Assembly: GCA_034231615.1 (NCBI GenBank)
Contig: CM067322.1
Span: 58,410,938-58,474,937 of the forward strand
DNA: 64,000 nt
Direction of reading: 5' to 3'
Source: Meghimatium bilineatum
Taxonomy: Eukaryota > Mollusca > Gastropoda > Stylommatophora > Philomycidae
The number at the start of each line of letters is the position of its first letter. Positions within the stretch are counted from its first letter, which is position 1. The notes under the pieces are model-generated. The model had not been told where the DNA came from. It was given only the letters and a program-made list of their open reading frames with translations, and did no database searches. The translations under genes were made by a program, and so were the position numbers. Positions 1 through 21,132 of this stretch are shown piece after piece.

Positions 1-128
1 GTAACTAGCATCTGGATTGTTGATGAGAAATTCAATAACAATCTTGGACATATGAACTTTGACCCTCATCTGCTCAATGAAAGGACTGTAAGCCTCGCTG
101 GGTTGCATCAATATGTACTCGACAAAAC
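1..128 (-). CDS. DNMT1: DNMT1 exon: RFTS C-terminal part, cut by window edge
   Basis: Begins after the acceptor at 130-129 and reads FVEYILMQPSEAYSPF and then KVHMSKIVIEFLINN. This matches the family's AEYILMDPSPEYAPIF and YISKIVVEFL. It is open to the window edge; the downstream CXXC, BAH and methyltransferase exons would lie outside. Confidence 0.93.
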
Positions 129-3100
129 CTGCAGTCAGAAAAAAAAAATTATGTGTAACTGTAATCAAACCAGAGGTCGTAGTAACTGGATTACCAGAAC
201 CACAATTTTTTTTATGGTTGTAAAGCTTTTATATAACCAAATTGGACTAACATCTAAGGTTGAAAGAAAGTACCATAAGAGGTACATTTTACTTAACCTT
301 TAGGACTCTACAGGTGCAATTTTGCAACAAAAGTGTGCCCCACATCTTGCCTATTGGCTCAATATTGCGCAGTGACTTAACAGATAGTGCCGAATCGCGA
401 GTACGGAACTTCACGAAGTAAAGCTTATAAGACGTAGAAATTCCCGCCACATGAAGCTAGGAATACGTCAGTCTAAAGATCAAATTCCTTTACACATTAC
501 CACTGTAAGAAGGGGAAAGCCAGTTGGTTTTGTAACGCATTTCTGGAGCGACTTTAGCTATTTTCGGTGCAGTATTTTACTATCACATTGAGTACCGCCT
601 GCCATGGGTAAGTAATCGCAACTACATGTTCTAATTGTTGTTTTTTGTGTTTAATATGTTGTTATTTGTTAAGAATGTATGTGTATTCGTTCAAAAACAC
701 AAAAATAATATGTATCAGGGGTGACACGTGTGTGCATGGACAATAATTACGCTGTGTGTCGGCCAAGACCTAGTGTTGACCGGACGGACATTATGAGATT
801 TCTTCACGTTTTATTCGTTTTTTAGGCCATATTATATTAGTTTGTATATGAAACAATATATATACAACAAGTATAGGTATTAGGGAGGATTTTATCAATT
901 TTTGCACACATTGCTCAAGTATTAGGGTCGTTAAGAAGTTATATGTGCGATTTTGCAATTTTTCCCCAAATTTTCAACTTCACATCATGCTCACCACTGT
1001 CATCTTCTTCTTCTTCTGCGATTCTACTCAAACTCCTGCAGATTAGCAGGATGTAGTCCAGAGAACGGAATGCAATGTGTCATGGTTTACACATTGCTGC
1101 GGTATCTGCGCCTTTTGACCTGACACATCCAACTTCAGCATGGCTTTGGGTCTCTGACCCTATATGGGATGGGACAGCCAACTACATCCCATAACCTCCT
1201 TAGTCGCCTTTTACGACATGCATGGAAGGTAAACAGTGTTGCTATTCTTTGCTACCCTTAAGGCCCCGGCAACACACGGGCGGCTCACAACTGTCATATC
1301 ATACATACAACAACAACAAAAAAACACAACTATATTCACTATTCACTCCTTTATTTAGATATGCAAAAATTATTTTGATATCTGTTAAAACAAAAATGTT
1401 ATCGCGTTTTCAAAACACCCACCATCAATAACGCAAATTTTCCAAAAAAGAATTCAGGCCCCAGGGGGATATTGCGTAATTTTAATTGAGGGCTGGGCTC
1501 TAAAGGTTAACCGGAAAAACATGCGTCCGGAATAAAACGGATTATTTGTTTGAAATAATGTTTCACTTTGTCAGATGAATGTACATACAAGGTTTTTACG
1601 TCTCCTCCATAATTTCAAGAAGCATTATGCTTGTAAATTCATGAGTATGCAGTAATAATACACTCAAATTGTTGCAAGAATGCGGTGGACAAACTGGTTA
1701 GGGAACAAAATTCTACAACCTTTAAAATTTTCTTGTACAGAATCATGATTTGACCTATTTACACACAAAACTCCCCCCCCTCCCCAAAGACAAATAAGAT
1801 ATACGTTCAAACAATTGGGTCAAAGTGCATGAGCCATGGAAAGATGAATTAGCAACCAACCAATCATTTGATTAATTGCAAGTGATACAATGTATAAAAC
1901 TGTGATATAATCAAGTGTTTTTAAGTAATTCAATCACATTCTGTTCCTTAGCATATTTCAATTTTCACTATTTAAAATATTTAATACAAATTATGCTCTT
2001 CTGCATGTGTTCATGAGATATAAGAGTTTCCCTTACTTGAAACAATCAAATAAAGGCTAATTTAAATAATGACAAACCTGTTGAAAACCCAATCAAGGCA
2101 TTTTCTCCTCCATCAAAGCCAGCAACAAATCATTCATTTATTGGACCCATGTTGCGGCAAGGTACTCCACCTGGAATAGAACAATCACATTAAAGAAAAA
2201 AAACTACCAAACATTGAAAACACTTTATTTTCTTCTACACATGAGAAGCCTTGTAGGCTAGTTGATAGTGAGCTTGCCTACTGTAACTGAGTTACAGAGG
2301 TGCCAGGTTCTAGCCTAGTTGATAGTGAGTTTGCTTACTGTCACCAGGTTACAGCGTGCCAGGTTTACTATCACCAGAAAATGTGATTTGTTTGAAACCA
2401 AGTCCAGATAAAAAATCATGGTCGTGATTTCTCACTTAATACGGTCATTCCTCCAGTTCAGGGGTTGTAGTTGGGTACCAGGAGTATGTGTTGAGGAAGG
2501 TAAACACTGCAAGGAAGGAAACTGGCCACACCACCTAATAGTTGCTACCATGGGACTTTAACACATATCTGTACTACGACTAAAAGATGTTGCCATTTTT
2601 GTTTCAATCCCTGGAAATAATGAGCAATACAGGATTTGCATCCTTTTGTGCAATTGAGGTTTCTCCAGAGATGTATTTCATGACTCCCAACTCCCTATAC
2701 GCATGCAATGCTTTGAGAAGAAATGTACCACTCAGAAGGTAAAAAGCTTCCTGTGTAGTCATATAATTTACTATGGCCACGCAGAAGATGGATGTGTTAG
2801 ACCATTGGCACAAATAACAGTGACACAGCGCATTTCCATTCTCTGGACTACATCCTGCTGGAAATCTAGTAGGACCATTGTCCTGCTATAAGGGAGATCC
2901 AGCGGGAGTTTGAGAATGAACACTGTAGAAGATCTAGTAGCGAATCTGTGCTGTTGCATAGCAAGTTTGTCTAATGGGACACTAGTGAGACCTTCACACC
3001 TGCATGCTAAAACTGGCATGTTTGTTTATCTGAATTTTAACTTTATGTATGTCTTTGAAACAGCCATTCCTTGTTTTCTTCTTTTTTAGACTAATTCCTT

Positions 3101-6100
3101 TGTTTTCACTTGCTTGTACTACCATGTCCAACAGGGCTTGAAGTTGTTGTTCGCTCCCTTCAATCAGAATTGTATCATCAGCATTTCTTAGATTATTCAG
3201 ATTGTAACCTCCAACTGTTAATCCTGGAATGTGAAATGAATATAGAAAAAGAAAATCTTCTAATGAAAAAAAAGCAAACAAAACAAGAAGTGATCATATG
3301 GGGAATATAAAGATTAAAAAAATTGCTGGAACATCTGCGGTCAAATATATTGAAAATCAGAGACTGAAATGGTTCCGCCACTTAATGAGAATGAACCAGT
3401 ATTGGCCAACAACAGAGCATACAACATAAATGAAGACATCAAACGGCAAAGGAAGACCAAGAAGAAAGTGGATTAAAGGAGTTACAAACGCTCTGAGACC
3501 TCACAATATTACTGCATATCAAGCGACCAAATGTAATATTGCCCAAAAACCGACCAGCATTCAACCATGCTACAGCTAACAGTAACAGCAGAGAAAACAC
3601 AATCGATAGAAGAAAAATGTTACACTGAAGAACTAATAACAGAAAAAATATGGAAGTTATTTGCTGCTGGCATCTTTTACAGAAACTCTATACAAACAAC
3701 CTAACTTCACATCCATACCTTCTGGGCTGGCATCCTCTTCAAATATGGGTTTCAAGACTCCGCTGAAGTACAGATACTTGTTACGTTCAATCAGGCAGGT
3801 GTCAAATGCACACAAGTGTGTGTTCTTATCATAAACACTGGAAGGGAACACAGTTTTAAAGATTAAAGTGCATGCAGATGAATCTATCAATCAAATACTC
3901 AATCAATCAATCATCTATTATGTCTATCTATCTGGCTATACAACTATTTGCACCTCATGGAATATAGGTCTTAAACAAACTCCTCTATCTTGTCCTATTT
4001 TTAGCTTGCTTCCAGTTCTTTCCATGCTCTACCACACCAAACTACTTTTGCATCTCTGCATCTATTTCTTTCCTCTAGATAATACTTGTTATTTCTCGTT
4101 TCCTGTGGGTTCTAGAGTAATGCCTGTATTATTATGCTTTCTTCTTCAATGTTCATTCTCAAATTCCTATTGAATCTCTCTTGTTAGGACAATGGTCCTA
4201 CTAGATTTCCAGAAGGATGTAGTCCAGAGAATGGATATGAAAATGGAGAATTAAATTGTGTTGTCGCCATTTTATTTGCACCAATGGCCCAACACATCCA
4301 TCTTCGGTAGTTTGCTATGCTTTCTGTTAGCTTTCTTAATGTGTGTCCTCCGCCGAAGACGGGATGTGTCTGCCATTGGCGCAAATAAAACGGCGACACA
4401 ATGCATTTTCATTTTCTGGACTACACCCTGCTGGAAATCTTGTAGGATCATTGTCCTGCTATAAGAGAGAACCAGCATGAGTTAAAATGAACGCTGAAAA
4501 AAGAAGATATCAGCTTCTGACTCCGATAGGAGAACGAGGAAGGAGACAAATAATTTTTGAACGTTCAAAAAAAAAAAGGGAGACTTACCTGAAGTTTGTG
4601 ATTTTATGTTGTGGCCGGTCTTTCGTTATTTTATCAAAGTCTTCATTACCAGTAAACAATGACAACTTTGGATCAGTGAGGGCAATGAACTCTTCAACCT
4701 AGAAATAGTAAAACCAACATTAGCCTGACATTTCCCGCTACAGACATTACAATAGATCTATTATGTGTATGAGAGACAAAATTAGCTATAAACATCAATC
4801 TTCGGGATTCGTTTTTAAATTACTAGATGAAATATATCACATCATGGTTTAAAGCTACACTATCCATGCATTTTTCGCCCAACACATCAAACTTCCGCAT
4901 GACATTTTTGGTCAAAAACAACTTATTGAATGAGGAAGTCAGTCCATACCAAAACATCCTTAGTCACCACTTACACTATGCATGGTAAGTGGCAGTGTTA
5001 TTTCTTTGATCCCTTTTTCAGACCTGGCAATACACATCATGATCATATCCATAACCCTTCAGGGTCGTAGAGTTGAGACTCTTGAAATATAGCGGTGCCA
5101 CTCTTGAAATGTCAACAGAAAAATTTTGCCATGCCTCTCTGTTCTTTGTTTAGGTGAAGAATCTTAATCTTGTCCAGTCTTTAATATTATCAATCCATAC
5201 TTTCCTCTTACCACCTCTTCTTCATCAACCATCAGCTGTTCCCTGCAAGATAATTTTGGAAAGGAAATCATGCCTCATGGCCAAACCACACAAGTTTTGT
5301 GATGTCTCACCACTGCCGTGAGATGTTCCTGTTGGCGTCAAATACACATAGGCCAACAGAAATATAATAGCAAGTGAACTGCAGATTAGTAGCATGTACT
5401 CTGGAGAAAAGAATGTTGTCATGGTTTACAGATTGACTGCACCTTTCGGCCTGACACATCCAACTTCAGCATATACCAAGTAAAAAATTAGAGACAGTTT
5501 TCAGGAATTCTAGGGATGCAATTATTAATTAAGAGAGAAAATGAAAAATTCACTGCATGGTACATGCCGAAATCGGATGTGCAGGACCTTCCAAGGTGCA
5601 AATAACTCAGTTATGCCGTAAATTAGTACTACAACGTACTTCATGCTTCCCGGCGGAAATCACATGCACTTTTGTGTTGATTACCAGAGTTCGAAAGAAG
5701 ACTGTATGTCACAACAACAGGCTGCAGTTCAGAGGATGGAATGAGTTGTACCATAGTTTGCAGCTTGACTACAATATATGTGCCCGTCAGCCCAGCACAT
5801 CCAACTTCAGTATAACATTGGATCGTTTATGAAACAGTAAATTCAACTCACAAAATCCTCTTAGTCACTTCCTACAACATGCATGGCATGCCTTAGTGTT
5901 GGTACTCTCTGTTCCCCTTTTGAGTCCGGCAACATTTGCCCGACTACAAATAATCATTTTAGCTTAAGTAAGGCCTGCCGTCTAATGAAAGCAATGAGAT
6001 CAAGCAATTACTAGAGTACACCCATAACTGAGCCAAATGCAAAGCGTGTTACGAAACCATGGCCTTTGGAAAAGTAAGAAATTGGTCGCTCACGGTCACT

Positions 6101-9100
6101 TACAAAGGACACTGTTCTGTAGCATTCTTTACATTCAGATCCGTCTCTCGTTTACACAAAAGTCGCTTCTAGTGGACAGCAGGCCTAATGTGTGCACAAT
6201 GGAAAAAAAAATACTTTATGGACGTGACTATTACCTTCTAACCTTGCTACAATGATCCTTCAAGGAACGATGCAAGGAAAAAAAGGAAGAGACAAATTTT
6301 TCTTAACTGACCACAGATACAAACAAATGAGCAACACAACTTACAGCATATTCAGAATCACCAGGAAATAACTTCAGTTCCTGATCGTCCATGTACTTCA
6401 AACATTCATTACATCTTTCTGGGAGAGCTTTCGTATGACTTAAAGTCAACACTGTGGAATTTCTGTAAATAAGAAACAGTTCATAACATGTAACACAAGT
6501 AAAAGATTACAAGTGGGAGGGGAAACAAACAGATGATGATGATGAAATAATACCTTTAGCTGCGAGCATATACCTCTTGACACATGATGATGATGAAATA
6601 ATACCTATAGCTGCGAGCAGATACCTCTTGACACATGATGATGATGAAATAATACCTATAGCTGCGAGCAGATACCTCTTGACACATGATGATGATGAAA
6701 TAATACCTATAGCTGCGAGCAGATAGCTCTTGACACATGATGATGATGAAATAATACCTATAGCTGCGAGCAGATAGCTCTTGACACATGATGATGATGA
6801 AATAATACCTATAGCTGCGAGCAGATAGCTCTTGACACATGATGATGATGAAATAATACCTTTAGCTGCAAGCAGATAGCTCGACATTCCACTGATAAAT
6901 TGACAGATTTTCTGACAAAAGTACAGGTCTTCCTCAACTAAGGTGATACCGGTGAGTATAAGCATGGTTGTGTTAAGGGGGCTTATAGGTTTATGTTTTT
7001 CCCAAAAGGAAGCATTTATTATTATTCGAGAAAAATAATATTATTCACGACATACACGTTATCTACTAGGGATTTGTTGTTGCATGGTGGTTGTTCTGGT
7101 ATGTCACTGGCGAGACCTGGCACTCTACATGCAGTTAACATAATCTATGCCGAGTCATATGCCAGATTGTAATTAATTTAAAAATCAGCTTACCTTTCTT
7201 GTTGGTTGATATTATTTTCATCTTCTAGTTTGGCCCTCTTGTGACTGTTTTCCTTATCATCGCTCTCATCAGGACACTTGTCACATTCAGTCATCTTGGC
7301 TTGAACATCATTAGCAACTATTTCTTGACCTTTTTTTGGTTCCAACTTGGGCCTGCTTGGAAATTATGAATGTTTCCGTAGAAAGTAGTTTCAAACAAGT
7401 AATATCAATAATAAAATATCAATGCAAAAGCAGTCAAGCTAAATTACATCTGGACAGAGCAAGCATATTATTTATCAAGTGAGATATTCTTCTCAGAACG
7501 ATGTGTTCATCGTGGATACTCTGAGCGCTTCTCTATCCCGGGCAAGCAGGACTGCATTGGCCAGAGATATGTGCATACATTCTTCGATGTCGCTGGTCCA
7601 TCGTCTTCTTGGTCCATGCACAGAGAAAGACAAATCAATGTAAAGAACATTAAATGTAGATACGGGTCGAATCTTGAACAACATCACAACATGAAAGCTG
7701 AAGTTTATTTTGGTTATATAAAGAGACGTAATAGCATGAGAAAACTAGTAATGGAAGGCATAGTTGCTGGTAACAAGGCAAAGATAACAACGGACGAGAG
7801 ACATTTCAGAGTCTTTAGAGGTGCCCATGGCGGCATCATGTCAACTTGCTCAGAATTGTGAGGATGTTTAGTTCTCAATAGTAATACTGCATTTTGGGAA
7901 GAATGTAACTCAATTAATGCTATTCATAATATATCCCAATCATTTATATTTTCATATAACCTTAATTTCTTGCTGCCTCAATGGAGCCCTGATATACAGG
8001 AACAGACGAGATCTGGAACAGACCCGTGAGCTTTCTAAAAATAAGTTGTTTTAGAAACCTCTTCTATTTATGCTGTCCATATTTTCATGGGTGCCTCTCT
8101 AACTTTAAGCCCACTGTATTTAAACAGCGTCACTTTTCGGATGGTATTAGTAACTAGTAGCATGTCAGAACCATTTGACCTGCTGTTTTCTGATGAAGTT
8201 CCGCACTCGTGTTATACCCACCTGCCGTCTGATTGTCTCATTACTGATTATATCTATTTTTGTGACCTTGTGAAAAAAAACTACTGAAAGCAAACAAAAG
8301 GGTAAAGTACACCCTGATCAAGTGAAAATATTTGATAGAATAGGAACTACCAAATCAATCAAACAAACACAGAATAGGAACCACCAAATCAATAAATCAA
8401 ACACAGAATAGGAACCACCAAATCAATCAAACAAACACAGAATAGGAACCACCAAATCAATCAATCAAAGAATAGGAACCACCAAATCAATCAAACAAAC
8501 AGAATAGGAACGACCAAATCAATCAATCAAACACAGAATAGGAACCACAAAATCAATCAATCAAACACAGAATAGGAACCACAAAATCAAACAGTGATTG
8601 TTCCACGTAAACTGCTATTTAATTTTTTTAAATATATTTACTTACCAATTGGTGTACAATCTTACTGCAGTTTTCTATTTACTTGAATTTTTTTAATCAA
8701 ACGAATGCAAACATGTTTTGGCAGTAAAGAAAGTCAATAATAATCATGTACGTTCAAATAACTCACCTTCCAGAAAACAATGACATAATTGTGGGCTGTT
8801 TGTCATCAGGAGTCTTAGAGGCGAGACGACCTGAAGTCCGAGCAGGTGCTGTTGAGTATAGGTAAAACATATACATATTTTCTGATGCCACTAAGCAATT
8901 ACACCTAATTAACCTTACAGGCTCTATAGGTGGTTATAGCCCCGACGTCATTATGTAACTTGGGTCGGTAGGCGTCTCCATTCACCCCCATTGCTATGCC
9001 CCAAATCATCAGCACGGAATCACACGAAGTAAAGCTTATATGATGTAGAATTCCCGCCACACGAAGCTAGAAAGAAATATGTCACAGCCTAAAGGTCAAA

Positions 9101-12100
9101 TTCCTTTACACATTACGATTGCAAGAAGGAAAAAGCCAGCTAATTTTTGACAACAAATTTCTGAAATGAATTTGTCCATTTTCGACCACATATTTTACTA
9201 TCAAATGTAGTGTAGCATTGACAAGTGATCAAATGTAGTGTAGCATTGGCAAGTGATCAAATGTAGTGTAGCATTGGCAAGTGATCGTCATAGAAAAAGG
9301 CAATGTACCATATTAGAAACACTGTTATTTGCCAATCATGTCATAAGAGTCAACTAAGGAGGTTTTGGTGTGGAGTTAGCTGTCCCTTCCCGTCATAGTG
9401 ACCCAGAATCCATTCTTAAATCTGATGTGTTAGGCTGAAAGGCGCAGACATCACAGCTAAGCTGTAAACCATGACCAAATGCATTCCATTCTCCGAACTA
9501 CATCCTGCTAAACTTTAGGAGTTTGAGTACGAACGCAGAAGAAAAATAAACACAAAAATAAAACATTTATCTTACCACTTTGCAGTTGACCTTGCTTCTG
9601 CCATCTGTATTCTCCTTTGTAAATTCTTTATTTTCTACGTTATTTTCAATGTTAGAGCCCAATGCAAATTTAGACAATGTCACAGCAACAGAGGATCCGT
9701 TAGTGATATGCCCATTGGCTACTGTCGCTGATGAAAATTCACCATTGTGAGCATGCTCAATGTCGATGCTACTTGTACCATTGCTAGTTCCGTTTGTGTT
9801 AATACTCTTCTTGTAAAAACCTTTCTATTAAAAAGAAAAAAAGTATTTCAAAAATACTTTTAAACTGGGTTTATTCAGTTCAAAGATGATAAAAACCTGC
9901 TAGGATGGTCTTTATCTGGCATTCTTTATGAGGTTATACTAAAGAGAAATGCGGTGGCCTAGCTGATAGTGAGCTTGCTTACTGGATTACAGCGTGCCAG
10001 TGCTGGGTTCCAAACAACATCTGGACAAAACAATCGGGGCTAGATTTACCTCCTGACAGCTCCTCCAGTTGACCCAGCTGTAAATGGATACCTGACGCAT
10101 GAGTTGGGGAAGGTAAACACAGCAAGGAAGGAAACTGGCCATCCCATCTAATACTGTAGTTGCTGCAGCTTAGCAAACGAAAAGTTATCTTCATCTCCGA
10201 CGGCAGGTCACTGTTATGGGATCTGCCGTACCTTTATACTAAAGAAAATCCTGGATTGACAACATCAAGGAATGGTCTGGGCATGATTTTGTCTACACCC
10301 CTCCAAGTGGCTATGGATAGAGATATTTGGAGAGCGTTCTTTTACTGATGTCACCAGTGTGGCACCCCTACGATCTAAATGTTTTTGGGTCTTATTGTTA
10401 TTGTTATTATCTAAGGTTTTCCACAGTTTATGCAAGCACCAGATGACTGCTGTACTCAATGTACCTGTGGGTTGCAATGTACCTGTGGGTTGCAATGCTA
10501 CAAAATGGACATATTATTTCTAGATGAGATTTTGTCATGATTTTCTTGCACTCTCAAAGCATCCTGCAGATAAAAGGGTTAATTTTCTCCCAGAGGTACA
10601 GGAATGGGTTTTCAGCAGACTTCAGCTCAGAGAAGATCATTGGATGAAATAGCTCATACCTCCTTAGTACCTTCTTACGACATGTGACAAGTGTTATTTC
10701 CCTTTCTGGTGCCAATAACACACAGGCAGTATTCTTCTTCTGCGTTCTTTCTCAAACTCATGCAGATTAGCAGGATGCAGTCCGGAGAACGGAATGTGTT
10801 GTGTCATGGTTTACAGCATTGCTGCGATATCTGCACCTTTCGGCCGGACACATCCAACTTCAGCATGGCTTTGGGTCACTGACCCTATATGGGTAAATGC
10901 AAATAAAGTAAATAGGTTACTAGAAAACTATCAATATAAAATAATAAAATATAGAAAATAAAAATATAAAATTTTTTTTTTTAAAAGAACAAATACAATT
11001 GTCAACGTGGTGGTCCAATTGGGATCTTTATCAAGACAACAAAAACAGTTAAGAACAAAAAACCATAACGAATATAAACAAAATGGATTTCTCCCACCAG
11101 GAAATCAACAACCAGCAACAACAGATCCAGTGCAATACCAACTCCATCCCATAACCTCCTTAGTCGCCTTTTACGACATGCGTGGAAGGTAAACAGTGTT
11201 GCTATTCTTTACTTCCCTTTTGGGCCCTAGCAACACACGGGCGAGGCATTATTCTAAACCTCTTTATTACCTCTTACGACATGTGGTAAGTGTTATTTCC
11301 CTTTCTGTGCCAATAACACACAGGCATTATTCTAAACATAAATAAAGTTAGCAGCAGAGACAAGAAAAACATTTAATCTTGTTTGTTTGTTTTGCATTCG
11401 CTCCATTGTAATCAGCACAGATATTCATGTGATTTCCGCCAGGAGCGTAGTTACATTGTGCCACCGTTATGTGCCTTGCAGGCCCAGCACATCTGATTTT
11501 GACATGCCTTGACATTTCGGGTGGACTGCCCTAGCCTGTGACAGCCTTCCTATCTGTCGTCAGGCAGTGAATGTGTACTTATTCTACGCCGAAACTGTCC
11601 TTCACATCTATCTTGCACGAGGTGTTCCGCCACCAGTGAACTTGTCTCATGTAATTTGACGTATTGTGACTGGGCCCATTGGGTACTGAACCTTTTCTCA
11701 TCCTCAAGCCTGGTTCCGGTTTAGTAAGAACTTGACAGAAGAAATGGACTCGGACTCGTTCACTCTCTTAGCCGAAGTGTTGTTCACCAACTTCATGAAC
11801 CACTCATCCTAAGTCCGAGTCTTTACACATTTTTATGAGCGTCAGGGACTAGCATTTGTTCTAGAACAGCTGAACAGTGCTGTCACCCTGGAAGGCTGTG
11901 CCTGCGCCCATCAGGCACTGAATCTTTTCTCTCCGCAAGCATGATTCCGTTATAGAAAAAACTCAACAGTAGAGTTGGGCCTGGGATCACCGGTATCTAG
12001 GAGCTTGTCTCGAATAAACAAAACAATAGTTCTGATTTCCTTGAAACGTTTTTCATTCTCTTTGCACGTGCTGCTGTCCTCTAGTGCTGTGCTTCCCTCT

Positions 12101-15100
12101 CAGTGTACACATTGTGCTATTATTTTTATTGTGACTAATGTGCCATTCTTTATATTTCTCATAACATCTGCCCACTTTGTAACAACTGCATTGGCCACCC
12201 TTCCGATGCTTCTGCAGAACTGACTAGCTTCATTGTATGTCGACAGTGCTGCTGCATGTGTTGATGCAGAGGTGTCTGAGATATTGCCTGTCAAATCTCT
12301 TTCCAGCTGCTACCTCCACTTTCACGGACACAATCCCCAAAAGTTTTAGCCAGAATCAGCACGAGCAGTTGTATTTCTGTTTCCAGGGTGCACCATGAGG
12401 AGGTAATTATGGGATCTTGGTTATCTGCTAACCCTGGGTCCGCCGAGAGCAATGCTGTACCCTTTGCACTCAACATCTTATCTTGATAAAGACCTTTTTG
12501 TTCAAAACATCAATTCTGAGAATTGTTTCACGTAAAACTGTTATACAACAATTTTTTATTCAATCAAATATCATGTGCCTACCCACTTTTTTCTGAATTG
12601 TGAACGAAATGTGCAGCTTCATTCCAAGTTTGTTATAGTACGAGCAGTAAAGGTCACCAGCAGACAATGTTGCCAAAAAAACAAAACGGTTAATTTAATC
12701 GGAGATATCTGTTTAGTGAGCTTGCCAGCTACAGTACAGATAAAGATGTGTGTTTGTTACAAACTCCTGCCAAGGTCATGAGGGAGAGCTCTCAGTGTGT
12801 AGCGCACAGTTTGATTACAGCTTGGCTGCGATATCTGTGCCTTTTGGTCTGCCATATAACTTTTGGATCATTAGCCTGTGTAATGGAATAGCCAACTCAA
12901 TCCCCAAATCTCCTTAATGGCCTCATATGACATGCATGGAAGGTGAGTGATGCTATTCTTTGTCCATATGGGACTCCGAGCAACACACATGAGGTCCTAC
13001 ACTCAATTCAGCAGCCACTGCTCCTAACTAAGTGTTGAAATAATGACGACATTTCACGACTAACAGAACATCGACTCGTTTTATATGTAAGTACCTCACC
13101 CAAGTGTTACCTGGGAACCAAAATGAGAGCAAAGAATAAAAACACATTTACCTTCCATACAAATTGTAATAGGTGACTAAGGAGGTTAGATGGAGTTGGC
13201 TGTCCCATCCCACATATGATCAAAGAGACACAAAGTGATACTGAAGTTAAATATGTTCGGTTGAAAGGCGCAGATACCGCAGCAATGATGGAAACTGTGA
13301 CAACACATTCTAACTACATCCTGCTGATCTGCAGGAGCTTGAGAAAAATCGCAGAAGATGAAATTTAAGTATGGAAACTGCTGGTTGCTCTAAAATATTG
13401 GCCATAAAACAAATATTTCTCTTAGATCACAATTTCCACCAAAGGCAGATGTGTCGGGCAAATGCCGCAAATAAAATGGTTTTAAAGCGTATTTCCATTC
13501 TCTGGACTAAATCCAACTAGAAATTGTGTAGGACAATGTCATGTTACAAGGGAAATCCAGCGGAGAGTTTCTTCTTCATCATTTTTCAGTCAGATATCAG
13601 ATACCAATAACTTCAATGAATTGTGTGGTTCCTTCAGGTCATCCATGGAACCCCTCAAGTCTAGAAGAAATGCAGTCTCAGTGGGCCATATTTTCTCCTC
13701 TTGGTAGATTTGACACATATGAAGAATGTGTTCTGCAGTCTCTGGACTCCGTGGTAGTACAAGTGACGACGATAGAACTGTGGTAGTACACGTGACGATG
13801 ATAGAACTGTGGTAGTACAAGTGACGATGATAGAACTGTGGTAGTACAAGTGACGATGATAGAACTGTGGTAGTACAAGTGACGATGATAGAACTGTGGT
13901 AGTACATGTAATGATGATAGAACTGTGGTAGTACATGTAATGATGATAGAACTGTGGTAGTACAAGTGACGATGATAGAACTGTGGTAGTACATGTAATG
14001 ATGATAGAACTGTGGTAGTACATGTAATGATGATAGAACTGTGGTAGTACATGTAATAATGATGGAACTGTGGTAGTACATGTAATGATGATGGAAACTG
14101 TGGTAGAACATGTAATAATGATGGAACTGTGGTAGAACATGTAATAATGATGGAACTGTGGTAGTACATGTAATGATGATAGAACTGTGGTAGTACATGT
14201 AATAATGATGGAACTGTGGTAGTACATGTAATAATGATGGAACTGTGGTAGTACATGTAATGATGATGGAACTGTGGTAGTACATGTAATAATGATGGAA
14301 CTGTGGTAGTACATGTAATAATGATGGAACTGTGGTAGTACATGTAATGATTATGGAACTGTGGTAGTACATGTAATGATGATGGAACTGTGGAAGTACT
14401 GTGGAATCCATCTATAGCTCATACATTTCTAGCAAATTTCCTGTTACCAGCAAACCCCTCCATCACGAACGCCTTTTATACAGACATAACACAGCTGTTT
14501 ATAACACAAACATAACACAGACCTACCACAACCTGACACAGGTTGTAATCTGGTAAGTGAGTAATAAATGCTTCTTTCCCTGAATTTGCGCCTACCAACT
14601 TCATTTTCTTTTGATTATAAAGAAAATATGAGTATACTCAACAGAGAGGTTGTAAGCTGGTAAACAGTGTCTACTTTCATAGGCAACAACAGACCATCAT
14701 TATTCGACTTAGAAAGGCTTCTGCACGACTCCAGGGCCACTTGTACCGGATCAGGGTAGCCCATACAAATGAATGTCCATGCCGAGCAGGCATACAGATC
14801 CCTGAACACATACTCAAAGATTGTCCAGGATACAAAGAACTGCAAGGCAAGACATAGCCACACTAGACTGAACTGAGGCAAAAACTTTAGGGCAGCCGCT
14901 ATGACCTGGAGAAGACGGAGCTTCGTCCTGGCCACTGGCCTGAAGACCTAACACAACCAAAAGAATCCTGAATACAGAAACATGGTCTGCTGAAATGTCG
15001 ATGTGTCAGGAGTCAAGTTAACTATGTGATCATTGATGCCAACAAATAGAAGTTCTAAATTTTGAAAACTGATTTCGTTGGGTTCTGCTAACATCCTCCA

Positions 15101-15605
15101 CCCCACGCAATCATCTTTGTTGTCTGATTCTACAAACTCACTCCCTATACACAATCATTTCTTGTTTGATTCCACTAACCCACTGCATATACACGATCAT
15201 CTATAATATTAAGTTCGCCCGTGTGTTGCCGGGCCAGAAAGGGGAGCAAAGAATAACAACACTGTTTACCTTTCACGCATGTTGTAAAAGGCGACTAAGG
15301 AGGTTATGGGATGGAGTTGGCTGTCCCATCCCATATAGGGTCAGTGACCTAAAGCCATGCTAAAGTCGAATGTGTCAGGCTGAAAGGCGCAGATATCGCA
15401 GCAATGCTGTAAACCATGACACAACGCATTCCGTTCTCCGGACTACATCCTGCTAATCTGCAGGAGTTTGAGAACGAACGCAGAAGAAAAAAAGAATATT
15501 AAGTTAACCTCTGCTTCCATTTAGACATATGACCAACTACAAACAATTCATCTCACCTTCACAGTTATGTCTCCATCTTTGAACTCTGACTCAATCTTGT
15601 TTAGC
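1..15605 (-). CDS. DNMT1: DNMT1-type maintenance DNA methyltransferase, N-terminal half, nine exons, with an in-frame stop
   Basis: DNMT1 copies CpG methylation onto newly made DNA in the nucleus. Exons in transcript order: 15605-15557, 9824-9576, 8848-8767, 7352-7194, 6462-6345, 4698-4589, 3837-3719, 2170-2078, 128-1 (open at the window edge). They encode a DMAP1-binding-like segment, a Ser/Asn/Thr-rich linker, a PIP box, an acidic/basic linker and the RFTS domain up to the SKIVIEFL helix. All junctions use GT/AG, and phases agree from 8848 to 1. The 9576 donor ends in phase 0 while the 8848 acceptor needs phase 1, so a small exon or different splice may be missed between them. The upstream start exon(s) were not found above 15605. 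Codon 2132-2130 is TGA in place of a conserved Trp. An intact but mutated allele, a recent pseudogene, a base error, or a recoded transcript all remain possible. Family identification is firm. Confidence 0.9.
297..1506. mobile_element. piggyBac-like non-autonomous element with nested SINE
   Basis: Bounded by TTAA at 293-296 and 1507-1510. The ends are imperfect inverted repeats: CCTTTAGGACTC at the left and, on the other strand, CCTTTAGAGCCC at the right. No transposase ORF is visible. Without the nested SINE-A (1004-1283) and its duplicated target it is ~0.9 kb. TTAA targets and short CC-starting ends are characters of the piggyBac superfamily; assignment is inference. It lies in a DNMT1 intron. 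Confidence 0.6.
1004..1283 (-). mobile_element. SINE-A, full length
   Basis: A 280-bp element inside the piggyBac-like element. It is flanked by CTCACCACTGTCAT (990-1003) and CTCACAACTGTCAT (1284-1297), a 14-bp target-site duplication with one mismatch. In its own direction it starts CGCCCGTGTGTTGCCGG and ends in a GAA-rich tail. Confidence 0.8.
1511..2077. other. DNMT1 intron, no recognised feature
   Basis: AT-rich intronic sequence with a short C-run near 1773. No exon, repeat family member or inverted ends seen. Confidence 0.5.
2078..2170 (-). CDS. DNMT1: DNMT1 exon: RFTS domain carrying an in-frame TGA
   Basis: A 93-nt exon reading CRNMGPINE, stop, FVAGFDGGENALIGFST. The family reads [20 protein letters not shown] here, so TGA (2132-2130) replaces the first Trp of the WW pair. 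The rest of the exon, its phases (1 in, 1 out) and the flanking AG and GT are intact, so this is a single nonsense change, not general decay. Confidence 0.92.
2245..2560 (+). mobile_element. tRNA-derived SINE with duplicated head
   Basis: The head motif AGTTGATAGTGAG, similar to a tRNA A-box, occurs twice (about 2259 and 2313). The 3' body has AAACACTGCAAGGAAGGAA, also found at 10,110. Intronic in DNMT1. Confidence 0.6.
2775..2940 (+). mobile_element. SINE-B
   Basis: Near full-length copy: GAAGATGGATGTGTTAGACC head through GAGAATGAACACTG at the tail. DNMT1 intron. Confidence 0.7.
3000..3240 (-). mobile_element. LINE fragment, reverse transcriptase core (family Y)
   Basis: Degenerate minus-strand reading with NADDTILIEGSEQQLQALL and DMVVQASENKGISL, the YADD catalytic box region of a non-LTR reverse transcriptase. 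It matches the plus-strand copy at 25.5 kb. Truncated at both ends. Confidence 0.8.
3295..3640 (+). mobile_element. LINE fragment, C-terminal region after reverse transcriptase
   Basis: Broken frame with ENQRLKWFRHLMRMNQ and GKGRPRRKWIKGV, patterns typical of the end of non-LTR reverse transcriptase ORFs. It has internal stops and lies on the opposite strand to the neighbouring LINE piece at 3.0-3.2 kb. Confidence 0.7.
3719..3837 (-). CDS. DNMT1: DNMT1 exon: RFTS domain with altered zinc ligand
   Basis: A 119-nt exon containing CAFDTCLIERNKYLYFSGVL and KPIFEEDASPEG, matching the family's HLCPIDTGLIEKN and FFSG regions. At the start the order is S-V-Y-D-K-N-T-H. Vertebrate DNMT1 has Cys where this Asp lies, and that Cys (with the His four residues on, which is kept) is a zinc ligand. 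The donor GTATGG is weaker than the others. Confidence 0.93.
4148..4312 (-). mobile_element. SINE-B, left arm of inverted pair
   Basis: Full-length-like copy with head pointing right (CATCTTCGG near 4306). It faces the copy at 4348-4505 with about 35 bp between them. Confidence 0.75.
4348..4505 (+). mobile_element. SINE-B, right arm of inverted pair
   Basis: Begins CGCCGAAGACGGGATGTG and ends ATGAACGCTGAAAAAAGAAG, only about 85 bp from the DNMT1 exon at 4589. It forms a head-to-head inverted repeat with 4148-4312. Confidence 0.75.
4589..4698 (-). CDS. DNMT1: DNMT1 exon: RFTS domain
   Basis: A 110-nt exon reading VEEFIALTDPKLSLFTGNED and then RPQHKITNF. It corresponds to the family stretch with KLSIF and LPQHKLTCF. 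Phase 0 entry, phase 2 exit at GTAAGT. Confidence 0.93.
4885..5035 (-). mobile_element. SINE-A, degenerate
   Basis: Retains CCTTAGTCACCACTTAC and CTATGCATGGTAAGTGGCAG, diverged from full-length copies. DNMT1 intron. Confidence 0.5.
5375..5475 (-). mobile_element. SINE-A, 3' portion only
   Basis: Keeps GTCATGGTTTACAGATTGAC and the CCTGACACATCCAACTTCAG block. Confidence 0.6.
5700..5945 (-). mobile_element. SINE-A, degenerate
   Basis: Diverged copy with ACATCCAACTTCAGTATAAC and ACAACATGCATGGCATGCC; ends near GAGTCCGGCAACATTTGCCC. Confidence 0.6.
6345..6462 (-). CDS. DNMT1: DNMT1 exon: start of RFTS domain
   Basis: A 118-nt exon containing PERCNECLKYMDDQELKLF. The C-x-x-C pair and the YxDD motif match the zinc-binding start of the replication-foci-targeting sequence (RFTS), which binds ubiquitylated histone H3 and autoinhibits the catalytic domain. 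It ends in phase 0 at GTAAGT. Confidence 0.92.
6527..6885. repeat. Minisatellite, 51-bp unit, about 7 copies
   Basis: Tandem units containing ATAGCTGCGAGCAGATA and CTCTTGACACATGATG. The 51-bp period is divisible by three, which keeps a 152-codon minus-strand frame (6965-6507) open; its repeated SYLLAAIGIISSSSCVK is a by-product. The same unit occurs at 43.3 kb in the opposite orientation, so it belongs to a dispersed element. It lies just upstream of the first RFTS exon. Confidence 0.9.
6885..6970 (-). mobile_element. Fragment of dispersed element D flanking the 51-bp array
   Basis: On the minus strand it reads GITLVEEDLYFCQK, related to HLSYTTEKNLCLCQKR at 43.2 kb. This links the 6.5-kb array to the element at 37.6-38.6 and 42.9-43.6 kb. 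Confidence 0.5.
7194..7352 (-). CDS. DNMT1: DNMT1 exon: charged linker
   Basis: A 159-nt exon rich in Lys, Asp and Glu, including the stretch CDKCPDESDDKENSHKRAK. It sits between PIP box and RFTS as in the family. Entry and exit are both phase 2. The short basic run HKRAK could serve nuclear import; that is inference. Confidence 0.8.
7353..8330. other. DNMT1 intron, nothing recognised
   Basis: No exon-like frame with splice sites and no member of the repeat families defined here. The stretch 7571-7861 is open on the plus strand but resembles no family I know. Confidence 0.4.
8331..8595. repeat. Minisatellite, ~34-bp unit, about 8 copies
   Basis: Units of AATAGGAACCACCAAATCAA plus TCAAACAAACACAG with length variants. 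Intronic. Confidence 0.9.
8767..8848 (-). CDS. DNMT1: DNMT1 exon: PCNA-interacting peptide
   Basis: An 82-nt exon coding KQPTIMSLFSG near its end. This fits the PIP-box pattern Q-x-x-I-x-x-(aromatic/hydrophobic)-F and lines up with the vertebrate DNMT1 peptide that tethers the enzyme to PCNA at replication forks. The exon ends in phase 2 at GTGAGT and joins 7352 correctly. Confidence 0.85.
8915..9200. mobile_element. piggyBac-like element, partial second copy
   Basis: Starts at TTAACCTTACAGGCTC and shares GAAGTAAAGCTTATA and AATTCCTTTACACATTAC with 297-620. The right end is not found; it runs into a 28-bp tandem repeat. Confidence 0.55.
9198..9285. repeat. 28-bp tandem repeat, 3 copies
   Basis: Unit ATCAAATGTAGTGTAGCATT plus GGCAAGTG, at the broken edge of the piggyBac-like copy. 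Confidence 0.85.
9320..9548 (+). mobile_element. SINE-A, near full length
   Basis: Lacks the extreme head; ends GAACGCAGAAGAAAAAT, 28 bp before the donor side of DNMT1 exon 9576-9824. Confidence 0.75.
9576..9824 (-). CDS. DNMT1: DNMT1 exon: end of DMAP1-binding segment and low-complexity linker
   Basis: A 249-nt exon (83 codons), fully open, beginning KGFYKKSINTNG and continuing as a Ser/Thr/Asn-rich, probably disordered stretch. The donor is GTAAGA. The family's equivalent stretch between the DMAP1-binding domain and the PIP box is poorly conserved, so assignment rests on position and the GFYKK link to the previous exon. Confidence 0.7.
9950..10160 (+). mobile_element. tRNA-derived SINE
   Basis: Head GCGGTGGCCTAGCTGATAGT (A-box-like) and GCTGGGTTCCAAAC (B-box-like), then a non-tRNA body with GGAAGGTAAACACAGCAAGG. 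Same family as 2245-2560. Confidence 0.7.
10161..10640. other. DNMT1 intron, nothing recognised
   Basis: Includes a small direct repeat of ATGTACCTGTGGGTTGCA near 10,458-10,496. No other structure seen. Confidence 0.4.
10645..11335 (-). mobile_element. SINE-A cluster with an internal foreign segment
   Basis: A nearly complete SINE-A runs 10,734-10,891 and resumes at 11,139-11,245, interrupted by ~250 bp of AT-rich DNA. It is bracketed by two similar SINE-A head pieces (10,645-10,733 and 11,255-11,335) that both carry GTGCCAATAACACACAGGC, suggesting a SINE inserted into or recombined with an older copy. Confidence 0.6.
11385..12480. repeat. ~1.1-kb dispersed repeat R, copy 1
   Basis: Starts TTTGTTTGTTTTGCATTCGC and ends near GGGTCCGCCGAGAGCAATGC. 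The same order of blocks is found at 22,685-23,935. It contains two units of an internal repeat around AACTCAACAGTAGAGTTGGG. No intact long frame; class unknown. Confidence 0.75.
12790..12990 (-). mobile_element. SINE-A, degenerate
   Basis: Keeps GACATGCATGGAAGGTGAG and GAGCAACACACATGAG. Confidence 0.6.
13170..13375 (+). mobile_element. SINE-A, partial
   Basis: Keeps GACTAAGGAGGTTAGATGG through GCAGGAGCTTGAG and a GAA-type tail. Confidence 0.7.
13440..13570 (+). mobile_element. SINE-B, partial
   Basis: AGGCAGATGTGTCGGGCAAA head; the 3' part is diverged. Confidence 0.6.
13590..13750 (-). mobile_element. LINE fragment, C-terminal region (family H)
   Basis: Minus-strand reading TAEHILHMCQIYQEE then WPTETAFLLDLRGSMDDLK. 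This is the Cys/His-containing end seen in many non-LTR retrotransposon ORF2 proteins (EHILxxCPxY pattern). A minisatellite has expanded at its upstream edge. Confidence 0.75.
13751..14400. repeat. Minisatellite, 29-bp unit, about 22 copies
   Basis: Unit TGGTAGTACATGTAATGATG plus ATAGAACTG with two main variants (ACAAGTGACG and ACATGTAATG). A 29-bp unit cycles through all three frames, so three overlapping open frames on the minus strand are artefacts. Confidence 0.95.
14690..14960 (+). mobile_element. LINE fragment, C-terminal region (family H)
   Basis: RLRKASARLQGHLYRIRVAH then CPCRAGIQIPEHILKDCPGY, ending in stops. Related to, but opposite in strand from, the piece at 13.6 kb. Confidence 0.8.
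15216..15494 (+). mobile_element. SINE-A, full length, clean target-site duplication
   Basis: Flanked by AATATTAAGTT at 15205-15215 and 15495-15505. It starts CGCCCGTGTGTTGCCGGGCC and ends CGCAGAAGAAAAAAAG. This copy defines element limits and direction. It sits 50 bp from DNMT1 exon 15557-15605. Confidence 0.9.
15557..15605 (-). CDS. DNMT1: DNMT1 exon: part of DMAP1-binding domain
   Basis: A 49-nt exon reading LNKIESEFKDGDITVK, preceded by a pyrimidine-rich tract and AG and followed by GTGAG. The SEFKDGDIT pattern followed by GFYKK in the next exon resembles the DMAP1-binding motif shared by DNMT1 and DIP2 proteins. It joins exon 9824-9576 in phase 0. Because the motif is short, a DIP2-like origin cannot be excluded from this exon alone; order and strand favour DNMT1. 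Confidence 0.65.
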
Positions 15606-15639
15606 CTGAAATTCAAAAAATATTAATATTCTTGCTAAA

Positions 15640-15765
15640 GTCAGATGTGTCAGGACAGAAGTCACAAATATGACATCAAAGCTGTAAGCTGTGACACCAA
15701 TGCACTACATTCTCCAGACTACATTCTGCTTAGATGCAGGAGTTTTAAAACAAACGCAGACTTAG
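15640..15765 (+). mobile_element. SINE-A, 3' portion
   Basis: GTCAGATGTGTCAGGACAG through GCAGGAGTTTTAAAACAAAC. Confidence 0.6.
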
Positions 15766-15804
15766 AAAGAATATAAACAACATAAAAATCAATGTCAGTT
15801 TTAG

Positions 15805-16150
15805 TCTTGTCTGCATTCTTTCTCAAATTCCTGCTTATATACAGGAGATAGTCCATACAACGGAATATACTATGTCATGATTAAATTGACATTAAGCACA
15901 TGTGTTACGCAAACCGAAAGGGGAGCAAAGAATAGCAACACCACGACCCTTGACCCATGCATGTCATAAAAGGCAACTAAGGTTTGGGGAAAGAGTTTCA
16001 GTCTCACCTCATAGGTTGAATTTACCAAAATATCCATGATGAAATTGGATGTGGCAGACCAAAAGCAGATATTGCAACCAAGCTGTAAAACATGATACAA
16101 TGCATTCCGCTATCCTGACTACATTCTAGCAACCAGGAAACGTTTAAGAA
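15805..16150. mobile_element. Two SINE-A pieces in opposite orientations
   Basis: A minus-oriented 3' piece (15,805-15,890) abuts a plus-oriented copy (15,897-16,150) that begins CACATGTGTTACGCAAACCG. Both are degenerate. Confidence 0.55.
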
Positions 16151-16382
16151 TGAAAACAGAAAAATTATTCCAATAAATTAAACGATTGCAAAGTTTCACA
16201 TTTAAACTTTACCACGAAACCAAAGGCCATCGGTTTTCCTTTGGTAAAAGACAGGCAGACATTTTCAACCAGTTGCTATACTCATTTAGCGACATATAAC
16301 ATATGATGTTTAATGTTTACATGACCGGAATTAACAAATGATAGCTAGTGATATTTTTTTATTCATAGTAGATATAGTAACA

Positions 16383-17535
16383 CAGCATTCATAGACTTAA
16401 CAAAAGAATTTAACATGGTAAGTAGGAAGGAGCTGTGGTAGATGATGTGTATTAGCCCCTACAATACTTAACATCATGTGCTCTGCTATGTTGGATGATG
16501 CTTTTAGAGATCTAAACTTGGGAGTAGACATATATAGCATCCATGGAAAATTATTCAACCTTTGGCGGCTCCGAGAAAAAAACAAAGTCAAATCACACAC
16601 AATCAGGGATCTCTTATTTGCTGATGACTGTGCCCTAAATGCCAACTCTGAGGCTGATCTACAAAGTATTATAGACAGATTCTTCAAATCTTGTACCAAC
16701 ATTGGACTTTCTATTAACATGGATAAAACATACGCCATGTTACAACTTTGACCAGCACCTGGCAAAAGTTATCACGAGACCTGCATAAAGGTAAATGGTG
16801 TAGCCCTGAAAGTTTTGAATAGATTCACATACCTAGGTAGCACTTTATCACAAAATGCCAACGTTGATGATGAAGTGTATACAATGATTGCCAAGGCAAA
16901 CATTACTTTCGGCAGATTGTACGCAAATGTGGCATAGAAATGGCATTAACCAACAGACTAAGCTGAATGTTTACAGAGCAGTGGTACTCCCAGTGCTGTT
17001 ATACGCTAGTGAAACATGGACTCTGTATAGACGTCATGTGAGGAAACGCAATCACTGTCACACAACTTTCTCAGAAAAGTTATGAACATCAGATGGCAAG
17101 ACAAGATTCCGGTTACCACAGTCATTGACAGATCTGGTATCCCTAGGATTGACACTATCCTGATGCAGACACAGATTCATTGGGCAGGTCATGTGGTACG
17201 TATGCTAATACTTCTCTATTAGCATCTGATACTTCTCTATGGTCAGCTGGAGAAGGGTACATGATCTCAAGGTAGCCTGTCAAAAAGGGTGCATCATCTT
17301 GTGAAAATAGGAGAAATGCAGCAGCTCACAGCGGAGAGTAGCTAGAAAGTCACGGACAGACCAAAAATCATCTATGGTGGTTATTCTATGTCCAAACTGT
17401 TCAAGCTCATTTGCGGCTCGAAAAGGGCTCATTAGCCATCATAGGAACTCATAGGCAAGGACATATCTCAAACTGAATTTCAGTGGATGTAACAAATAGT
17501 CATAATTACTTGTTATGGACGAACAACAAAGACGT
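16383..17535 (+). mobile_element. LINE, 3' half of ORF2 and 3' UTR (family C), degenerate
   Basis: The frame has LLFADDCALNANSEADLQ (reverse transcriptase catalytic box), then LPVLLYASETWTLYRRHVRK, and near 17,390 a Cys2-His2-like end, CPNCSSSFAARKGLISHH. Frameshifts and stops break it. The 3' end matches the better copy at 47,641-48,793. No nearby gene uses it. Confidence 0.9.
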
Positions 17536-17712
17536 TATGGGATGGAGTTGGCTGTCTCATCCTAAATAGGATAAAAGCAACCCAGAAGTCATGCTGAAGT
17601 TGGATGTTTCAGGCCGAAAGGTGCAGATATCGTAGCAAAGCTGTAAACCATGACACAATGCACTCTGGTTTCCCGACTACATCCCGCTAATTTGCAGAAG
17701 TTCAAGAATGAA
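17536..17712 (+). mobile_element. SINE-A, partial
   Basis: GGGATGGAGTTGGCTGTCTC through AATTTGCAGAAGTTCAAGAA. It directly follows the LINE 3' end. Confidence 0.7.
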
Positions 17713-17899
17713 CAGTGTGCTATTTATAGCACAGTGAAGAATCAAAAGCAACTTTTACTGAATATTCACTCCCTGCATTGTCCTCCATCAACAGGTTACT
17801 TTTTCTCTGTCACGGTCTGCCTTCTCATTACCCCATGCTCTGCATTACCTACCATGGGTGATGATGACTTCACAGGTTACTGATGATGGTCAGGCTAAT

Positions 17900-18480
17900 G
17901 ATGAATAACGTATTGTTACATGGGTGGTGGCAACATTATTGTCAATTTATATTTATTATTGACTCTTTGCTCTTCTTTTCGTGCTCGCCAAAGTCATTTT
18001 ATTTGCCTACTATAATTTAAATTCATATTTGCAGTTTTTTTAAATTATGGGCCTAATTAATTTAATTACTTAGTCGATCTGAATCAACGGGGCATGCATA
18101 GAATAGACTAACTTGAGCGTTAGGCCTCAGCCTTACTATGCCCAACACATGCCTATTTATTTATTACTAGTAGTATTAGTTATCAAGGCCCCTAAGCATG
18201 TTTTGTTTTAATTAGAATAATGAATAATTATTATTATTAAATATTAAATCACATCAAATGTTATTTTTATTTTTATGCCAATCTTCACATTTTTATCAGA
18301 CTTGCCTGCTCATACAATCTGCATCAATTTTATTTAGAAACTGCAGAATATCTAACAAACAAATGCAAATGGAATTATACAGAAAGTAGGCAAACTTCGC
18401 GCTATTTCAACAACCGGAACTCTTCTTCCTGTCCAAGGTTACCACTCAATATTTTAGACAAGAACTTGTTCAGAAGACAA
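17900..18480. other. AT-rich spacer, nothing recognised
   Basis: No coding or repeat signature seen. Confidence 0.4.
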
Positions 18481-18481
18481 A

Positions 18482-18625
18482 TCATCATCAGGTGCCTTGC
18501 TGCATCAAAGTCGTTGTTGTTTCCTTGTCGTGCCAGGTTGTCAAACTTCTAATATTTTCTCTGGAGGTGGCTCTGTTGCCTTCAATTTTGTCTGTTGTGA
18601 CTATGTTCTCTAAACCAGACAAATA
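18482..18625 (-). mobile_element. LINE 3' end (family Y)
   Basis: Minus reading GLENIVTTDKIEGNRATS then SLTTWHDKETTT, ending at a CATCATCA tail. Same end as 31.3 and 53.4 kb. Confidence 0.75.
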
Positions 18626-18774
18626 CAAATACAAATCCAAAAAGCCCAGAAAAAATGTATTTGTTCGTGACCATCGACAATATAAGTCTTTTTTTTTCTT
18701 TTCGTTGTATACCCCTTTGTGCATTGCAGCGTCAGAGGTAGAATAGTTCTCTGGGGGTGGCTTTTTGTGCGCTT

Positions 18775-18940
18775 CATATGTTTATTTTCGTTGACTCATT
18801 TATTTCTGTAATTCATCGTAAAATGGTCAGCTCCTGGATTTGTAACCATCAGTCTTCAATCCTGTATAGTAATTCTTTTCAAGGAAGACTGTCTGATGGT
18901 AGTCTGGAAGCATGTAAAAACCACTTAATCTGTTGTCATT
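18775..18940 (-). repeat. Unclassified dispersed repeat, shared with 34.4 kb
   Basis: Minus strand contains ATGCTTCCAGACTACCATCA, also at 34,430. The similarity continues as a coding-like stretch (WITEINES, NIYEAHKK) for about 160 bp. Confidence 0.55.
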
Positions 18941-18954
18941 TTATATAATAATTT

Positions 18955-20345
18955 CAGGTTGTGAAATGATCAGACTAGTTAATTTATTTATTGACTTAGC
19001 TGAAATAGAGGATATATCATCCGCCGGAATCTTCTCCTCTTTGATTAGATGTCTTCATTCTATTGGATTGACAGAGGAGTGCTTGAATGAATGTTTAATT
19101 TTTGTTTTTTTGTGATGGTACAGCGGTAATGTTGGGTTCTCGTAGAAAACAATGTTATTAAAAGATAAATGTCCATCATTAATTGTTTGACACTGTGCTA
19201 AGCATAATCTGGAATTATCTGTCCACGATGCTGGTAAGAATGTTTCTGGAATTAATAGATTCAAATAATTTATTGACAAGTGATACGTTTTTATCACGCA
19301 TCGCCAAAAGAATAATTGCGAACTCCATGTATGTGCCAGTTCACTGGAAGCGAAGTTGTTGAAAATTCAACGAATATTAAGCTTAATATTCGTTGGGTAG
19401 AATCCAACTTTCGCTCAGTATCTGCAGTTTTGTAGGATTATAAAGACTTAGTTTGTCATTTTAGAAATCCTAAAGATGATAATTCCAGAGATAAAAAAAA
19501 GAAGATAGGTGCACATATGAGGGATTGATGAAGAAGATTACTATTGTTTAGTTTATTTTAGACTTAGGATAGATGTGCGATACACTTCAAAAGCTCTTTG
19601 AACAGAGCATGACATCGCAAAAACGAAACATAACTTTTAATTGTGCCAATAAAGCAATTAAACGCACTATACAGTTGTTTGTAGATATGAGATCATATCC
19701 CGGACAGTACTATAAGGAAACCGCCCAAGCTGCAAAGTCTCTAGTCCAAGAAATTCTTATTTACAAAAGAGATAGAAAAGATAACCAACTAATATGCCCT
19801 GTTTCCTTTTATGATAACTTGGAGACTTCACTAAAACAACGACAGCTCGAATATAAAGAAGCTGATTTACTCAAGTGAGCCCTTTGTGTTTGAGGAAAAA
19901 CAGTTGTCTGAAGAAACACACAATTTTGTAATATATGACGAAGAAGCAATTAGACATTTGTCAATGCGGTTTCGTTTGAACGACAGAAATATAATACATA
20001 GAATCTTGGAATAAAAGGAGGAAAAATACTTTCAAACCTTCAATTCACAATCTTGACATCACTCCGATCTTCTCAAGTAAACTTGCAAGAGATTTCTCAC
20101 AGCTGAACATGATTGCAACACCTTTAAAATCGTCATTACTGATTAAGATTATATCAGCAGTTATGTTTATCAAGATAGTTGACCCACTCTCTGTCAATTT
20201 TATCCTACTAAATGTGTTGAATCCTGGCTGCTTTTTGGGCACCACGCAGCAACAGATTACAAAAGCAAGGAAAGAAACAGAAATATTGAACTTTCTAAAG
20301 GCATGGATAAATTATGGCCTTTATGATAAATCTGGCTACAGTAAG
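18955..20345 (+). pseudogene. hAT-superfamily transposase remnant (KIAA1586/ZNF862-like)
   Basis: Broken plus-strand coding blocks in family order: DLAEIEDISSAGIFSSLIRC, then CDGTAVMLGS, ILDLG and MCDTLQKLFEQSM, IKRTIQLFVDMRSYPGQYYK, FRLNDRNIIHRIL, and the C-terminal dimerisation part SQLNMIATPLKSSLLIKIIS followed in another frame by GHHAATDYKSKERNR. At least four frameshifts and several stops. hAT proteins move DNA by cut and paste; this copy cannot. Terminal repeats were not identified. The identification rests on recognising the domain order from memory. Confidence 0.8.
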
Positions 20346-20399
20346 TTTTATATTAATGTATTTTTGTATGTATGTCTGTATGTGTGGAGGTTGTGAGGC

Positions 20400-20550
20400 C
20401 CATATATATATGGAAAGGTGTGAGTGGTTCTTTTTGTTGCTCGTTCACATACTCAACACTAACCTCAAACCTATTAGTAGTCTCTTATGACATGCATGGC
20501 AGATCAAAGTGTTAATATTCTTCGCTCCTCCTTCTGACACTGTCAAAACA
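20400..20550 (-). mobile_element. SINE-A, head portion, degenerate
   Basis: Keeps TATGACATGCATGGCAGATC and TTCTTCGCTCCTCC. Confidence 0.5.
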
Positions 20551-20894
20551 CGAAATGATTGAACCCTTCCTCTTTAGATAACGCAACCTCATAATTAACG
20601 TTACGGAGAATACACAACAAACCACACCGCCGCCCGTTTTATATTATGACAGTAGAACTATAAGAAAATTATATGATTACTCAAAATGTTTCATACGTAA
20701 GCTTGTTTTGTTTTTTTTCAAAGTTCCCAATATGCAAATTATTACGGCCTAATAGGGGGGGGGGGTAGGGGAATGGGTGGTGGCCATTCATGTTAAAGTA
20801 TTGACCATCCACTTTTGTAAACGCCGTATACCCTTCTTTTTTCCTAGAAAAAAAACCACTTAATGTATGTATGTATGTATGTATATATATGGCG

Positions 20895-21110: not shown

Positions 21111-21132
21111 TGAATGTAAAAATGGTCATCAT

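Follow-up and report, generated by a model that had tools for sequence, protein, structure and literature searches.

A private nonsense codon in one of many dispersed, intron-containing copies of a DNMT1 5' region in the land slug Meghimatium bilineatum

The window (the whole stretch of 64,000 nucleotides analysed here, C25:58410938-58474937, contig CM067322.1, from a genome of 1,612,235,226 bases in 32 contigs) holds on its minus strand the 5' part of a DNMT1 gene (Table 1). Coordinates below 1 designate bases preceding the window start. The plus strand reads TCA at 2130-2132, which gives an in-frame TGA on the minus strand. The exon that contains it is bordered by TTCCAG on its 5' side and GTTTGT on its 3' side, both consensus splice flanks, as the original prediction had noted. 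It translates as GPINE-stop-F, with TGA where the RFTS domain of human DNMT1 has the first W of the NEWW motif. The same exon in a copy that carries TGG (L024) aligns to the human DNMT1 RFTS with an E value of 3.6e-10, GPINEWF facing GPINEWW. The TGA of the window therefore occupies the position of the first Trp of NEWW, and the initial reading of a nonsense codon at this conserved residue is confirmed. At the second W of the motif the window has F, as do 19 of 20 other copies; the remaining one has L. The neighbouring exons in the window are all open. Since the TGA-bearing exon measures 93 nt and has phase 1 boundaries at either end, its skipping would preserve the reading frame.

Table 1. 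Coordinates of the features in and around the window
Feature	Position	Strand	Remark
Next DNMT1 RFTS exon, running past the window start	1..128	-	Pfam match of that exon at at least 74 genome places
DNMT1 RFTS exon, 93 nt, phase 1 at both ends	2078..2170	-	
TGA codon replacing TGG (Trp)	2130..2132	-	private to the window copy among copies read
Upstream DNMT1 RFTS exon, open	3719..3837	-	
Upstream DNMT1 RFTS exon, open in the window	4589..4698	-	private stop in the C8 copy
DNMT1 exon, start of the RFTS region	6372..6446	-	tblastn stretch, ends not refined
Private stops of the window copy	Trp at 2132; Arg at -13526; Cys of motif I at -16049		
Segment of about 2.1-2.5 kb missing from the window copy	9259..9295		present in 4 of 4 other copies read there
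COLGALT1-like exon (C-terminal part)	46339..46602	-	E 4.5e-17
Part of the window colinear with the C8 copy	1..49821		89-99% identity where sampled; near-continuous to 19476, then six probes

Before the window start lie, in order, the rest of the RFTS region, the CXXC exon, the BAH exons and an exon carrying catalytic motif I. The ordered succession of RFTS, CXXC and BAH exons indicates that the likeness to DNMT1 is not due to chance. The RFTS domain is recognised both by the Pfam RFTS model and by alignment to human DNMT1, and the CXXC zinc finger by PF02008 (E 1.4e-11). Exons of both BAH domains were placed by tblastn. PF01426 matches three of four BAH-region exon translations; two of the three, including one that belongs to the C25b copy described below, exceed the curated cut-off. 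This is the organisation of an animal DNMT1, from which the window copy differs by its nonsense codons and by a catalytic domain that was not found after motif I in the stretches read. A human DNMT1 query detected no exon corresponding to human residues after 1150, either in the window or in the loci searched, which total 280,383 bases and are mostly other parts of the duplicated block. Of the C5-methyltransferase domain, four copies yielded only the motif I exon, which bears a stop in the window copy. The sequence read beyond this exon amounts to about 16 kb in the window copy and 12-15 kb in the copies C25b, C8 and C15, a range compatible with a catalytic exon lying more than 12-16 kb away.

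The locus had originally been taken for the maintenance methyltransferase itself, and the downstream exons had been proposed as a check. The RFTS, CXXC, BAH and motif I exons are indeed present, but the later catalytic exons were not found within about 16 kb. Together with the lack of about 2.1 kb kept by the other copies, this means that the window copy does not look like a maintenance methyltransferase, and its two further private stops likewise speak against that premise. A null allele of a working maintenance methyltransferase is consequently a highly improbable explanation of the TGA. In its favour, the RFTS part of the gene model is otherwise sound, and the loci read include no other complete DNMT1. 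However, many similar copies exist, the window copy carries three stops, and the 16 kb after motif I are devoid of any exon although the exons already located are separated by introns of 0.7-2.4 kb.

Scanned with the Pfam RFTS model, the genome yielded at least 105 matches, assigned by hand count to the upstream (29) and downstream (76) exon; 150 of 237 candidates were scored and these counts are thus a lower bound. The downstream exon is found at at least 74 places on 20 contigs (three of its 76 matches lie within 3 kb on C19), so that the search for further DNMT1 loci suggested at the outset returned a large family. Each of eight loci retrieved by this search has intron sequence in common with the window. 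The copies C25b (C25 at 17.29 Mb), C8 (43.27 Mb), C15 (21.23 Mb) and part of C12 align with it through both exons and introns of the gene, with about 91-99% identity. They are therefore not processed pseudogenes, which would have lost these introns, and they correspond to segmental duplications, in which stretches of 1 kb or longer recur at several places with no less than 90% identity. Several copies occur in pairs, as seen by hand reading: two same-direction pairs lie 41-42 kb apart (C14:26278759/26319929 and 26899289/26941188), and five inverted pairs, on C10, C3, C12, C1 and C25, lie 52-102 kb apart with their DNMT1 3' sides facing.

The codon was checked in 24 other copies, 4 from long stretches and 20 from short ones, leaving 49 of the 74 places unread. 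The exon was not found in the stretch retrieved for four of them (L030, L032, L033 and L034), and all 20 copies with a readable exon carry TGG. Of the 24, 19 also gave the TGG motif in a stricter text search; L029, the twentieth copy with TGG, has a silent change in the adjacent codon. Among the origins first considered for the TGA, a pseudogene, in the form of the decayed paralogue that had been foreseen, is the one these copies bear out; A-to-I recoding received no positive support and a base-calling error is not needed.

Comparison of the window, C25b, C8 and C15 copies, after removal of codons that were incomplete in two or more copies or lacked a clear majority, gave 58 nonsynonymous changes (including 5 stops) and 16 synonymous changes for 5905 and 1592 sites respectively, that is, a pN/pS of 0.98. 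Private stops number three in the window copy, one in C25b, one in C8 and none in C15; the C12 stretch, outside this count, contains two in-frame stops. Private changes per 1487 exon bases amount to 13 (window), 9 (C25b), 13 (C8) and 19 (C15), and per 19044 intron bases to 113, 150, 180 and 159 in the same order. In these four copies and over 15 exons, private change is similar in exons, in introns and in the LINE situated within the block. Such disabling changes and lack of coding constraint are those of an unprocessed pseudogene, although two RFTS exons point in the other direction. In a comparison of 31 rows, in which some copies are counted twice because of overlapping loci and a small number of divergent intron stretches have a strong influence, these exons depart from the consensus at 11 of 1953 (0.56%) and 9 of 1570 positions (0.57%), against 521 of 32307 (1.6%) for introns. 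This lower exon variation runs against neutral decay and would fit some past constraint, but the gap between exons and introns is absent from the four-copy comparison. The number of stops also counts against the neutral reading. About 4.4% of single changes in the RFTS exons of the window create a stop, and its 19 changed codons include three stops for an expected 0.84, the chance of three or more being about 0.05. Pairwise differences, computed without tandem arrays, are 1.7-2.1% among the four long copies and 2.3-2.5% to the partly read C12, with no close pair. This uniform divergence is as would be expected from a burst of copying. Private changes of the window copy (17700 to -26700) affect 38 of 887 CpG positions against 175 of 29843 elsewhere and are thus about 7 times as frequent at CpG, an excess that would fit germ-line methylation of this copy.

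The same private changes bear on an assembly or base-calling error at 2130. The base was judged from the assembly sequence, and the heterozygosity of 1.05% given for the species (PMC10770140) allows it to represent one allele. However, the published assembly (1.61 Gb, 25 pseudo-chromosomes and 7 unanchored scaffolds) is described as built from PacBio HiFi reads (PMC10770140). A copy that already has 13 private differences in 1487 exon bases and 113 in 19044 intron bases is expected to have one more, and two other private stops occur downstream in it. An error is therefore quite unlikely.

A third possibility is that the protein is rescued by A-to-I editing, by stop readthrough or by skipping of the symmetric exon, which would keep the frame. 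Restoration of TGG by editing had been put forward in the original prediction. In the predicted fold the U of the codon is unpaired while the G and the A are paired beside a loop; the A belongs to a short imperfect hairpin with a pairing probability of 0.63. However, no long duplex is predicted, and the region folds with a z value of -1.42, 8 of 100 shuffles being at least as good. A 5' G disfavours ADAR. The predicted fold around the TGA decides neither for nor against editing. The two further private stops downstream would remain in any case, and TGG is the codon of all the other readable copies, which makes a rescue of any of these kinds hardly credible.

The TGA is thus very probably a private, neutral change from TGG in one non-functional member of a set of dispersed, intron-containing DNA duplicates. 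Fairly recently, copying at the DNA level would have brought to dozens of places a chromosomal block in which the 5' part of DNMT1 (RFTS, CXXC, BAH and the first catalytic exon) adjoined a COLGALT1-like gene. The copies would then have drifted with no detectable coding constraint, the window copy gaining three stop codons and lacking the 2.1 kb kept by others, while a separate intact DNMT1 presumably supplies the function. We infer both that the places beyond those read resemble the read copies and how the block spread. The observations themselves are many copies, conserved introns, a private stop, a pN/pS near 1 and no catalytic exon after motif I in the stretches read. Since the window copy is a decaying duplicate, neither editing nor a null allele of a working gene need be invoked. 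The initial observation accordingly reads the sequence correctly, and what lies behind it is ordinary: one of many decaying duplicates has acquired a private nonsense change. A false lead towards a knockout of the maintenance methyltransferase or towards RNA recoding is removed.

The dispersed block is a more interesting object than the codon. The likeness between the window and the C8 copy, the only one followed this far, extends over at least 79 kb, as sampled with separate stretches and probes rather than by continuous reading. A stretch of C8 (L051) matches the window to 19476. Six C8 probes match at 24.2-24.8, 29.2-31.2, 36.0-36.4, 40.8-41.4, 45.9-46.0 (only 97 of 600 bases) and 49.2-49.8 kb, with 93-99% identity. 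The COLGALT1-like exon lies between the last two of these matches; the exon itself was not read on C8. No upstream COLGALT1-like exon was noticed among window ORFs of at least 70 aa. An ORF at 44355-44663 ends in KDEF and matches no Pfam family; it may, as a guess, represent the last COLGALT1-like exon. Before the window start, C8 matches to -29136, then over 203 of 2200 bases to about -29576, with no match for the rest of that stretch. In other copies the alignments end sooner, at -24110 in two C14 copies and at -26702 in C15, and a 7-kb stretch between two C10 copies has only dispersed repeats in common with the block. C25b (L012 16-1331) and C15 (L022 1871-3185) share 1.3 kb (95.5%) beyond window position 17.73-17.76 kb that has no match in the window, a possible sign of subfamilies among the copies.

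Three delimitations of the block were considered and discarded. A 44.5-kb element ending at 17761 and -26706 is contradicted by C8, colinear to 49821 and -29576 where sampled. A gigantic 3' transduction by a LINE was considered as the C15 alignment ends at the LINE 5' end, at about -26706, but C8 and C25b continue past this point. The inverted repeats at 28962-29537 and at -26710 to -27273 are not supported as terminal repeats, both being internal to the larger block. The LINE, with endonuclease and RNase H domains (L009, about 3295-7313, corresponding to -26706 to -22687), is common to the long copies with the same divergence. C8 carries an extra insertion of it at window position 10614-10626.

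A giant mobile element that took up the regulatory part of DNMT1 could account for the spread of the copies, a question that concerns the block and not the codon. Relatives at at least 74 places on 20 contigs, the similar divergence between all long copies, the conserved introns, which imply copying at the DNA level, and the common LINE of equal divergence are in keeping with such an element. However, the provisional ends show no inverted repeat apart from a single 10-base match (E 0.12), the true ends lying beyond, and alignments end at different points in different copies. No transposase was recognised among 10 ORFs compared with Pfam (four LINE proteins, one PAS match below the cut-off and five without any match). 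In viral contigs no relative of one 62-residue RFTS exon was confirmed among 68 pattern matches, which is a weak test. A mobile element thus appears rather unlikely, and passive segmental duplication is also compatible with the data. A bolder proposal is that a giant DNA-level mobile block captured the DNMT1 regulatory part, leaving most of the catalytic domain aside, and spread to dozens of sites of the slug genome, and that, while the block was young, a catalytically dead RFTS-CXXC-BAH protein translated from its transcripts could have interfered with methylation of the block; we consider it doubtful, more so than mobility itself.

The copies resemble the unprocessed pseudogenes of dispersed segmental duplications in that they bear introns, exceed 1 kb, are more than 90% identical, show private disabling changes and have a pN/pS near 1. 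They differ in number, with at least 74 places for one block of tens of kilobases. Such a count is unusually high for a duplicated block of this kind. What is unusual is therefore that a block of this size, with half of a key epigenetic gene, occurs in pieces at so many places and apparently dispersed over a short period. In this species it could confuse gene counts, surveys of methylation genes and expression mapping. Retrotransposons carrying DNMT genes are reported from dinoflagellates and charophytes (PMC5890265). These also place a cytosine methyltransferase gene in dispersed copies, but there the DNMT is part of the retrotransposon, whereas the slug block has kept its introns and has no defined carrying element. 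Moreover, the slug copies are devoid of most of the catalytic domain in the stretches read and are decaying neutrally. Titles and abstracts of the open-access literature searched contain no mention of a DNMT1 multiplication in slugs or snails.

Two kinds of repeats complete the description of the window. A SINE-like dispersed repeat of about 270 bp occurs many times on both strands, in the window and downstream (for example at 1005-1283, 10730-10890 and 15218-15491). The region 50884-63998 is a 13-kb AT-rich tandem array, strongly strand-skewed, composed of 70-bp (and 136-bp) units.
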